Under the pieces are notes generated by a model. That model made no database searches and was not told where the DNA came from. It worked only from the letters and a program-made list of their open reading frames with translations. Of a stretch of 64,000 nt of DNA, positions 53,110 to 58,787 are shown in pieces. Source of the DNA: Rhea pennata (Eukaryota > Chordata > Aves > Rheiformes > Rheidae). Numbering within the stretch: position 1 is the first letter of the stretch; every line of letters begins with the position of its first letter. The stretch spans positions 7,544,017 to 7,608,016 of the forward strand of contig NC_084677.1 of assembly GCF_028389875.1 (NCBI RefSeq), written 5' to 3'. The position numbers and the translations under genes were made by a program.

Positions 53110-53177
53110 CACTAACATTATGGATGTATCCATACAAAATTAGTAGTCTGAAGGGAGATCCCAGCTATCACAAGAGT
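53110..53177 (-). pseudogene. TVP23A: TVP23A remnant, last exon with frameshift
   Basis: After the acceptor TTTGTTTGTCCACAG the frame reads TLVIAGISLQTTN, matching the family. It then needs a one-base shift in TTTT (53,136-53,139) to continue as LYGYI. Unshifted, it runs into TAA six codons later. Beyond YGYI there is no clear similarity, so the C terminus is lost or very diverged. Confidence 0.78.
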
Positions 53178-53661
53178 CTGTGGACAAACAAAAGTTTAGC
53201 TAGGACAAATAAAATGCTATATATAAACTGAACATACATACGCACACACATATAAATGCCATAAGAATGGATTATTCCTTCAGCTATATATGAGAATTAC
53301 TGAGCAGTCCAGTCACAGTACTCATAAACACAAGTCCCTTTCTACAAAATAGCTCTCTTTTTATCTAAACAGTGATACAAATTTTTTCTCCAGTTAAGGT
53401 TATTCTGCATCATGAAAGAATTCATTACTGTCCTAAAATCATTCAAAAAGGCTATCTTCGACTCTATATCATTCCACTTACACTAAGCCTGATTTATATC
53501 TGAAAACTCATGTCTGGATATAGAGCAAGCCTACAGGCTTGTTTGCCAACAACTGACTTTATATACAATAAGATCCTGTAACTTGCAGATTTACAGAGAA
53601 TATCAGTAGATGTGAACAAATACATAGCATTAACTGGCCCTGGAAATATTTAGGTTATTTT

Positions 53662-53712
53662 ATTAGGTACTATTGGTAGTACCTAATTTAGTACCTATTT
53701 TATTAGGTACTA
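53662..53712. repeat. Alternating inverted repeat TAGGTACTA
   Basis: The nine-base word TAGGTACTA and its complement TAGTACCTA occur four times in the order forward, reverse, reverse, forward. The first pair extends to an 11-base perfect stem (53,662-53,672 with 53,677-53,687) around a TTGG loop. The second pair closes around a TTTTAT-type loop. Confidence 0.9.
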
Positions 53713-54200
53713 TAGGCTTAGCAGTAGACAAAATCCATTTATCCAACTAACTGACGAAACAATTTAAAAAATAAGATTTTTTTCTTAGTGTTTTTCATAG
53801 ATATGACAAAACTAGTCTCAGCAACACTACCCTGGAAGCTATCAAATTTTCCTCTGTGTAACCCTCACCTTTTACAGTCACTGTTAGTTGACAGTAAGAC
53901 CTGGAAGACCCTTCTCTTCAGAGCTAGCTTCAGAGCTCCCTTTGTCAAACAGCTCTCAGTCTAGCAAACAATCTCTGGTTTACAAAAAGAAAGGTAGACC
54001 TGTGGAGAAACTGGTTTAACTGGCAACTACCGTTTGTTTAACTATGTTGTTCTGGGCACTAAAAAGCAATCACAAATTTGCAATTGATTCTTAAATGTAT
54101 CTGAATTTCCTGTTTCATTTAGTAATAAAATGTAATCTTGGAGATTATGAGTTACATCACATGTGTGCAAGACACTTGCTTTTGATCTTTCCAAAATTTT

Positions 54201-54274
54201 TGAAGACATTGTACTTACAGGATTCTGATCTAGCTTTTGAAGACATTGTACTTACAGGATTCTGATCTAGCTTT
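54201..54274. repeat. Perfect 37-base tandem duplication
   Basis: Two identical 37-base copies (54,201-54,237 and 54,238-54,274) begin TGAAGACATTGTACTTACAG. The absence of differences suggests a recent duplication, or a collapsed or expanded assembly repeat. Confidence 0.93.
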
Positions 54275-54993: not shown

Positions 54994-55119
54994 CAGCCTT
55001 TTCAGCTTCAAGGAAAACAAGGTGCTAAAGAAAAACACTGTCCACAGAACTGGACAGATAATGAGACCAAGCCAAAAGATTTGAGCTTCAACTTCAGGTG
55101 AGGCAGCTATGGTAGATAC
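54994..55119 (-). pseudogene. TVP23A: TVP23A remnant, open 42-codon exon
   Basis: This exon has no stop. It reads [20 protein letters not shown] and continues as [20 protein letters not shown], a strong match to the third and fourth membrane segments of TVP23A. Near its start it is about one residue shorter than human. The acceptor is TTTTCTTTCTAG and the donor is CTG|GTAAGT. Confidence 0.88.
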
Positions 55120-57660
55120 CTAGAAAGAAAATTATTGAAGCTTGTAGTCAGAAAGACAAAATCAACGATAAATAACAGAAGGAATCAGCAGAGAAGGAAT
55201 GGACAAAATCATTTCTTCACCTAAATTTCACTTGGTGTGCACAGGTGCAGAATTCAATAATAGGAAAAATAGCTGATGCCAAGTTCTGTGCCTGCTGCAG
55301 AAAGAAGAGCAGAAGTGTTAAGAAAAATTCAGTCCTGTAACCAAACAGCTAGTGGCTAATGTGGAAATTGCAAGGCACATCTATTCCAAGAGCTAACAAG
55401 GAAACTTTAATGATCTCCATAGGATTTATCAGCTGGTTTCAACTCAGACAAAGAAATTCTCATACCAGTGCCCATTTCCATACCCTTCTCTAAAACTATA
55501 GTGTCTTCTCTTAATGTGAATCTTGTTTTGTATTGGTAGCTAGTACTTCAGTTTTGTTTATGAGGTCCATTGATACTCCATAATTTAAGAAACATGGTTT
55601 GAAAAATGCCTACTCTGTCACACTAGCACTGGACACCATGACAACTGCCAGCACGTCTTTGAAGGATGCATCGTTATGCGAGGTGCTCTATTTGTGCACT
55701 TCAGGAAAAGCAAAAGCCTCAAGGCAGGTTGCAAAAAGCCCTGGCTGATGATTTCTCCTGGTCAACACAACTAATGTGTCTTTATCTACAGTGAAAGGAT
55801 TATTGTTAGTTCCTAACGCTTCAGAGAAACTAAGGAAAGAGAATTATTCAGAAGGTTCTGATCTTTCCTAGATCAGAGATTTGTCCATCCATCCATCCCA
55901 TATTAGACAGACTATTGTATTCAACTTGTAAACATGCTTAAGTAACTCTATTTTGCCAAACAAGATCCATTAATTAAAAGCTCTTTAATTTTTTTCACAT
56001 ATCCCCTAAACCAGTGACTCTACAGAGATCCAGAGAATAGTAATGTGATTCTATGCCTTCATAGTTAGAGAAAAAAAATGTTCCCAGTGGGTTTACTCTC
56101 CTTTATCCAGAATTACAAATTACTCAGCAGTGACTTTGCATTAGTGATAAGTATTTAGAGGGGAAAAAATCAGTAAATCTGAAAACTCTGCACCTGAAAG
56201 ACCTAGTTAACTTGATGAGTGAGATTACAAAAGCCTGTAGCCGTTTTGAGGAAAGAGGGAGAGGAGAGTTATGGTGCTTGGAATGCAAAAGTAAGAATTA
56301 CTGTTCCTCCAGCAATCCTCAGAAGAAAATAGGATTTTTAGAGGAAGCTCTGTCACTGCAGCAGGAGACCAGGAATCAGCAACTTACTACTGGTGAGTGA
56401 TTTGGAAATTTTAAAGAGGTCTGAAAAGGCTGCCAGAGGATTGACAAGGAAAGTGAGGAACACTGGATATTGGAAATTAAGAGACTTGGCTCTTGCTGTG
56501 ATGGAGTATATATCATGGATAATCCATGACAAAAATGTAATCCATCCTAATTATATATTCTTTCTCATGATATTATGATTCTCATGTTAATCAAGCTACT
56601 ATTTTGCCAGAATTTCTGGAAAGCTTAAGTCCATACAGATAGGTTAGCTTTGGACTTCTAGGCTAGAAGTAACGAACTGCAATATATGAACTAGGCAATA
56701 CTCGTTATGGTAATTTTGAGATTGAGGTCACTTTGTGGGTAACATTGCTTTAGATGCTATGAAAGCTCTTGCTTAGTGTCTCAACAGGACTAAGAAACTC
56801 TGGAGGTCTTTTAGTTTCTTTACTTTCATGCAGACTGTCCTATGTTCTCCTTTTAGACATCGGTTAGGTTACAGGAAGAAACTACTTGTTACGCTCCTAA
56901 GAGCGCTTGGCTGCGCTCTACCTGCATGCGCTGTTCGTGCCTGGCGACCTTCTCGCTGCCCAGAGCCCCTGGGCTGCCAGAGGGCACTCCAGGCCTGCCC
57001 TTCGGAGCGTTTTCCGGTTGCCTCAGCACTAGGTTGTGTGTGCGGCTGGATCCGCATGAAACCCGCGTGGCGGGGAACAGCTCTTGCAGGGCTGTTTTGC
57101 CAAGCTCTTCCCGGAATACGCTCAGCAAACGAAAGCGAAAGGCACGATCTTATCTCCAGCTAGCAGCAGTGCCAGAGGCTGGCTCCAGGGTTCCTGGAGG
57201 AGTGCTCGCAGGGTGAGCACGCCCCACGATACAGATTCCGCTTGCCAGCATAATCCATGAGCAGGAATGAACGGAGTACTTCCTTTTTTTTTTTTTTTTA
57301 ACTAAATTTGAATTATTCGATCTTATTTTCAACACATCTTTTTTTTTCCTGGGGAGAGCACTGTGTTGGAATTAACTATGGGATGATGCTTTTGTCACAA
57401 GATGTTCTCCCTAGGAAATAAAATAGCAGAACTACAGAAGTGTCTTGTAACTGTAGTAACACACTCTTATTCTGTTGATAAAATGTTATCAGACATCTTT
57501 TGCACTAAAGAACTCCAGGATGTCACAAATCCTGTGTGCTTACAGTTCTTTTTTGTTTTGAATACTTTATCGTTCATAGCTGCTGAATAAAAGTAATGGT
57601 TAGAAAAGTGCTCTAGAGCTCACTTACTTTGAGTATCAGGTTGACCCTGTGCCTACTTAC
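55120..57660. other. TVP23A remnant intron
   Basis: This intron is about 2.5 kb. The only unusual part is a GC- and CpG-richer patch at about 56,880-57,220 in otherwise AT-rich sequence, followed by T runs at 57,284 and 57,337. No exon is recognised. Confidence 0.75.
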
Positions 57661-57750
57661 TCTTTTTGCTTCAAACACCTAGTGGCTTTTTCCATCTTCA
57701 TCAATCTGACTCCACCAACATAAACCATCCAAGAGTCTGCCTGTCGTGTT
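57661..57750 (-). pseudogene. TVP23A: TVP23A remnant, exon with internal TAG
   Basis: The 30 codons read NTTGRLLDGLCWWSQIDEDG, KSH, TAG, VFEAKR. The family has GKSHW[IV]FE, so TAG replaces the Trp codon by one base change. The acceptor (TTTCTCTCACTAG) and donor (AGA|GTAAGT) are intact and phases fit the neighbours. Confidence 0.88.
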
Positions 57751-58643
57751 CTAGTGAGAGAAACAATTATTTGCACTAATCAGTTGCATAATTCATTTGT
57801 CACACTAACATTTTAAGAAAAATGGCAAACATATCTGAAAAATCACTTTTTTTTTTTTTAATCAAATGCTAAATGAGCTTTATAAGCTATGCCAATTTGG
57901 ACACAATAGTCATCAAGGATGGATAAGTTAACAGAAATTCAGAGGCCTGTTCTCCTGGTCTAACATGACAATAGGCAAAACAACATTGATTTACATGGGA
58001 AATTATAGGACATACTTTTCCGAGGTCAGTTACTAGGAAAATCCTCTGGTAAACCAATTCTCTCAGTAAAAGAAGTGAACAGAAACACATTGAATTAACA
58101 GAAAATTAATTATGAGCAAGTGAACTGCATGGAATCAAACAAATGAATTAAGAAAATGTTTCTGCAGCTGGGTAAACACTAGCATTTTGGGGAATACACC
58201 AGTGCCTCACCTCTCCAGGACTACAGCCTTGACTACAGCCCCCTGATTCTGTGCAGGCTGGACCCACCTGCCCGCTCGTGGCGCCAGCACCAGGGCTGCG
58301 CTCCCGGAAGCATTTTGCAGCTCCTGCACGCTGGTGTAAGGCACCATTTTGCAGCTTCAGACTCCTCCGGAATCCATTACTAAAGGCTAGTACTAGTTTA
58401 TTTCTTTTAAGAGGGAAAAATGTGCAGACAGATCTCCCTAAGACAAGGTAACTTTCTCACTCCGTTATGTAACCAAGGCAGTAACTAAGATGTCTAAGTG
58501 TTTTTCCATTACAGTGGGGCTTGATGTGTTTTTAGAAATTAACAGATCACAAGGCTTTTACCACTTTTTTCAGAATGTCTTCCCTTTTTATTAAACGGCA
58601 CAAAAATATTTGCAAAGGTAATTACTGTTCAGGGTCATCTTAC
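57751..58643. other. TVP23A remnant intron
   Basis: This 0.9-kb stretch has no recognisable exon or element. Confidence 0.75.
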
Positions 58644-58787
58644 CTTCACTGACCAAAAGTCAAAGGGTAGAAGAAGGAGAACAGTGACAAAACAGGCAAC
58701 AAAGCTGTTGCTAAACCAGTCACAGAACCAGTAGGTAACGACAGCACTTCATTGGAAAAACAGATGGAAAAAGGTGGCCAGTGGATG
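58644..58787 (-). pseudogene. TVP23A: TVP23A remnant, exon with internal TGA
   Basis: This exon reads HPLATFFHLFFQ, then TGA, then [12 protein letters not shown] and a hydrophobic segment ending PFDFWSVK. Relatives have Arg-Val where this copy has Gln-stop. The donor AAG|GTAAGA is intact. The exon start is unclear: sequence before the HP does not match the expected basic KAKIR-type stretch, and no acceptor fits well. Homology on both sides of the TGA rules out a splice boundary there. Confidence 0.85.

Follow-up and report, generated by a model that had tools for sequence, protein, structure and literature searches.

Results

The locus between NUBP1 and CIITA

The window analysed here is a stretch of 64,000 nucleotides of the Rhea pennata genome (C15:7,544,017-7,608,016). 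It belongs to a region with the gene order TEKT5-NUBP1-TVP23A-CIITA-DEXI-CLEC16A, an order and orientation that match those of human chromosome 16. The TVP23A locus lies between NUBP1 and CIITA, and four stretches of the minus strand of the window that look like exons, running from 58,787 to about 53,121, read as TVP23A. The features are as follows, with a slash marking the exon edge:

58644..58788, minus strand: TVP23A-like exon 1 of 4 (HPLATFF...DFWSVK, read from 58,787), containing a TGA at 58,749-58,751 and ending in a canonical donor; based on PF05832 (9.4e-13), on tblastn with a provisional human TVP23A reference (79%) and, for the leading G, on comparison with TVP23B
58789..58796, minus strand: lost acceptor of exon 1, TTTTTTGG/GCATCC versus TTTCCAG/GCATCC in the TVP23B of the same bird
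57661..57750, minus strand: TVP23A-like exon 2 of 4 (NTTGRLL...FEAKR), with a TAG at 57,679-57,681; acceptor and donor canonical; PF05832 match (7.6e-7)
54994..55119, minus strand: TVP23A-like exon 3 of 4 (VSTIAAS...KLKRL), with an open frame and canonical splice sites on both sides; PF05832 match (8.7e-7)
53,177 to about 53,121, minus strand: TVP23A-like exon 4 of 4, TLVIAGISLQTTN, then LYGYI in another frame; acceptor canonical
46408..52070, plus strand: NUBP1 exons, with open frames in the parts examined; adjoins TVP23A tail to tail and is used as synteny anchor and control

The first three exons match consecutive portions of the profile PF05832 in the correct order (profile positions 2-49, 50-78 and 85-117, respectively). 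This profile, with the Pfam name DUF846, represents the TVP23 family, and the matches lie far above chance. The exon 4 piece of 21 residues is without a Pfam match, and a PDB search with exon 3 returned one irrelevant match (E 0.66). When the exons are aligned with TVP23B from this genome, their order and their intron positions agree as well. The four TVP23A exons described in the initial annotation are confirmed at the positions listed above, while its description of the splice sites as intact has to be amended: seven sites were open to judgement, of which six (three donors, three acceptors) are canonical and the acceptor of exon 1 is gone.

For the assignment to one of the two paralogues we used provisional reference sequences of human TVP23A and TVP23B, as we did for human NUBP1 and EMP2. 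With these references, the window copy is nearer to TVP23A than to TVP23B in all four exons: 38/48 (79%) versus 27/48 (56%) identical residues in exon 1, 21/30 versus 20/30 in exon 2, 28/34 versus 21/34 in exon 3 (its first 8 residues uncounted) and 9/13 versus 6/13 in exon 4 before the frameshift. Overall, 96 of 125 compared residues are identical to the human TVP23A reference.

NUBP1 served as a control from the same contig; there were no stops in 286 hand-chosen residues, which show 39 differences from the human reference. The two largest CIITA alignments are stop-free as well. Among the alignments with at least 60% identity, two of five for CIITA hold 2 stops and two of 14 for CLEC16A hold 3 stops; judged by eye, these alignments appear to overrun exon edges. 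To the left of NUBP1 (1-46300, about 46 kb), a partial scan (one frame per strand at 31.3-46.3 kb, the minus strand at 10-30 kb) recognised a tektin exon alone; it lies on the minus strand at 17488-17646 (PF03148, 3.3e-34 for the whole frame, in two stretches) and by synteny belongs to TEKT5. The human EMP2 reference gave no convincing match (best E 0.036).

Several repeats are found in and around the locus. The intron that follows exon 3 contains 2.1 copies of a 37-base unit with 100% match (54198-54275), probably a young tandem duplication. GC-rich minisatellites occur between the first NUBP1 exons (46531-46673) and at 62600-63266 (4.4 copies of a 57-base unit and 2.7 copies of a 44-base unit), the latter perhaps close to where the old promoters of the two genes TVP23A and CIITA lay. 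Past the window end, a reverse transcriptase domain (PF00078, 1.6e-31; C15:7618017-7628016, frame 2, residues 3083-3293) probably represents a LINE between TVP23A and CIITA. A search for CR1 tails with six short words yielded one match for one word and was uninformative.

Disabling lesions in the TVP23A-like exons

The reading frame of the window copy is interrupted three times, and all three lesions named in the initial annotation are present in the assembly at the positions given there: an in-frame TGA in exon 1 (58,749-58,751), an in-frame TAG in exon 2 (57,679-57,681) and a one-base frameshift in exon 4. The frameshift is due to one surplus base in a run of T (53,136-53,139), where the DNA alignment places four bases against a single codon of TVP23B. 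The TAG stands at a conserved tryptophan position. The TGA stands opposite a valine codon of TVP23B from which it differs at all three bases, and it therefore likely arose by more than one event. Equally borne out are the two altered motifs that had been pointed out before, GLCWW and KLKRL, for which TVP23B of the same bird retains GLRWW and VKWL.

In addition to these lesions, the acceptor of exon 1 reads GG in place of AG, with TVP23B of the same bird as reference. An AG located 20 bases upstream of the exon edge was considered as a substitute acceptor and rejected: with a phase as in TVP23B its use would shift the frame, and the TGA-bearing exon would still come next.

In TVP23B, a further N-terminal coding exon carries DDTEDVSL. 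Three probes for a corresponding exon of TVP23A, applied to the window from 46 kb onward and to 110 kb past its end, gave best protein matches with E values of 1.6-3.5. A DNA pattern for DDTEDV was then run along the minus strand between 58.8 kb and 95.9 kb, where the large CIITA exon lies (numbering is continued past the window end). It had no match with up to two mismatches and one with three (0.5 expected); as a control, the same pattern finds TVP23B exactly. A donor-type pattern was matched with one mismatch at 80,095 (0.4 expected), where a TVP23 motif does not adjoin, and in a six-frame Pfam search of 59-64 kb the one match was far below its cut-off. Searched against the whole genome, the N-terminal exon of TVP23B matches itself only, in a search that was maybe too narrow to pick up a paralogue that has diverged. 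The N-terminal exon of TVP23A may have been deleted, or have decayed or diverged beyond recognition.

Copy number and the paralogue TVP23B

We searched one assembly of 1,268,942,789 bases in 180 contigs with PF05832 and scored all 16 candidates. Five matches were obtained at two loci, the window and C19:12,105,700-12,109,156. The locus on C19 is TVP23B, its third exon being 92% identical to the human TVP23B reference; exons 2 to 6 are open and the splice sites are canonical where seen. One of the PF05832 matches at C19 overruns both edges of exon 5; the TAG it contains is that of the acceptor, and the TGA lies behind the donor. The second paralogue postulated earlier is hence present in this bird. 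The DNA of exon 3 of the window copy occurs a single time in the genome, and neither this search nor the PF05832 search found a second TVP23A copy in the assembly. A retrocopy can be rejected since introns are kept and the locus lies within the conserved NUBP1-CIITA order; likewise, a processed or duplicated pseudogene was rejected on the basis of the retained introns and neighbours and with no parent or second copy found.

Constraint and age of the lesions

The human TVP23A and TVP23B references agree at 86 positions; 17 of these are changed in the window copy and 5 in TVP23B of the bird (Fisher p 0.011), in line with relaxed constraint on the former. If only the 81 positions also common to TVP23B of the bird are counted, 16 are changed in the window copy, 2 of them to stops. 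Within the window copy itself, a smaller share of conserved positions (17/86) than of variable positions (12/39) is changed, a difference short of significance (Fisher p 0.25). Differences from TVP23B peak at third codon positions in three exons (21/48, 17/30 and 20/34, respectively). This third-position excess, together with the constraint still visible, indicates that selection held TVP23A for most of its history and that decay came later; the likely course is a relaxation of selection followed by decay.

Counted in and beside 133 codons, the two stops, the frameshift and the lost splice site correspond to a neutral divergence of about 0.05-0.09 substitutions per site, with 95% ranges from 0.016 to 0.206 over three indel ratios. 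With assumed substitution rates for birds, set at 1.9e-9 and 3.3e-9 per site per year, this translates into a rough age of about 5 to 108 million years; the estimate is weak, as we chose the mutation weights and indel ratios ourselves and left the missing N-terminal exon out of the count. The initial annotation had suggested a recent loss. Given the lost acceptor, an N-terminal exon that was not found and this age range, we see no support for that dating, though the lesion count remains compatible with a loss some few million years ago.

Discussion

Taken together, our data make it highly probable that the only TVP23A of Rhea pennata, which has kept its ancestral position with NUBP1 and CIITA on either side, has decayed to a unitary pseudogene. 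The proposal made in the initial annotation is upheld, because the neighbours are conserved, the copy is single in the assembly and several separate lesions disable it. By inference from one assembly of one individual, the lesions would also exist in the living bird and be fixed, full-length TVP23A protein would not be made, and selection on the gene would have been relaxed for millions of years. The trans-Golgi role of the family would then be carried by TVP23B, which may compensate for the loss.

Errors of assembly or base calling in an intact TVP23A are a conceivable source of the lesions, all the more as the frameshift falls within a run of T and a single assembly is at hand. This run is just four bases long, however, and four separate lesions of different kinds are set against no stop in the 286 chosen NUBP1 residues of the same contig. 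Conserved residues are altered too, and 1.27 Gb in 180 contigs suggests long reads, so that we attach very little weight to such errors. A lesion-bearing allele that is unfixed in the species is just as improbable in our view. Fixation cannot be read from a single assembly, but several lesions, 17 of 86 conserved positions changed and a missing N-terminal exon imply a long decay rather than a single young null allele.

Some features do count against a pseudogene: a good deal of constraint can still be seen, the frame of exon 3 is open, and all but one of the seven splice sites judged are canonical. The gene might accordingly still function by means of exon skipping, by RNA editing that turns the TAG into a codon for tryptophan, or through a non-coding role of its transcript, and with the TAG at a conserved tryptophan A-to-I editing could in principle recode it. 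Neither the frameshift nor the GG acceptor could be repaired by editing, though, and skipping of the TGA-bearing exon would break the frame because it comprises 145 bases with its leading G. As conserved residues have decayed in addition, we deem a gene that still functions scarcely probable. For the pseudogene that we favour instead, it is an evenly balanced matter whether the loss happened in one bird lineage some tens of million years back and is common to its living relatives, with TVP23B as their sole TVP23.

According to one study, TVP23A and TVP23B are trans-Golgi membrane proteins, TVP23 is known from yeast as well as from plants and mammals, and in the mouse losing TVP23B alone harms gut secretory cells; possible redundancy among TVP23 homologues is considered worth investigating by its authors (PMC10282085). 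If our interpretation is true, a bird without TVP23A would be a natural knockout in which the redundancy of two trans-Golgi paralogues can be tested in a vertebrate, and the locus would be a further clear case of a gene lost in birds. Among the papers listed for TVP23A, FAM18A and TVP23B, those on birds and chicken included, no title or opening of an abstract reports a loss of TVP23A. TVP23 is absent from the main text of PMC12954441, and TVP23 and FAM18 from that of PMC4290089.

Two other articles mention the gene in birds: TVP23A is listed as upregulated in the knob bone of the goose, together with CIITA (PMC8244220), and among genes differing in the pallium of the zebra finch (PMC11251365). 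A loss in all birds is unsupported because the gene is listed as expressed in these two species. Both names stem from annotation, though, and a transcribed pseudogene may be present there.

Within the rhea genome the two paralogues differ, exons 2 to 6 of TVP23B being open and the TVP23A of the window being disrupted by two stops, by a frameshift and by the loss of an acceptor. Among known systems, the case is alike to the STK33 unitary pseudogene of neognath birds as described in PMC4509753: there, too, a conserved vertebrate gene survives in its original place as a remnant that has lost exons and gained indels and premature stops. The two cases differ in that STK33 was followed in 28 neognath species and dated (PMC4509753), whereas TVP23A is described here in one genome, and in that published lists give TVP23A as an expressed gene for two other birds. 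The loss of TVP23A in Rhea pennata is a credible though ordinary one that resembles known losses in birds such as that of STK33.
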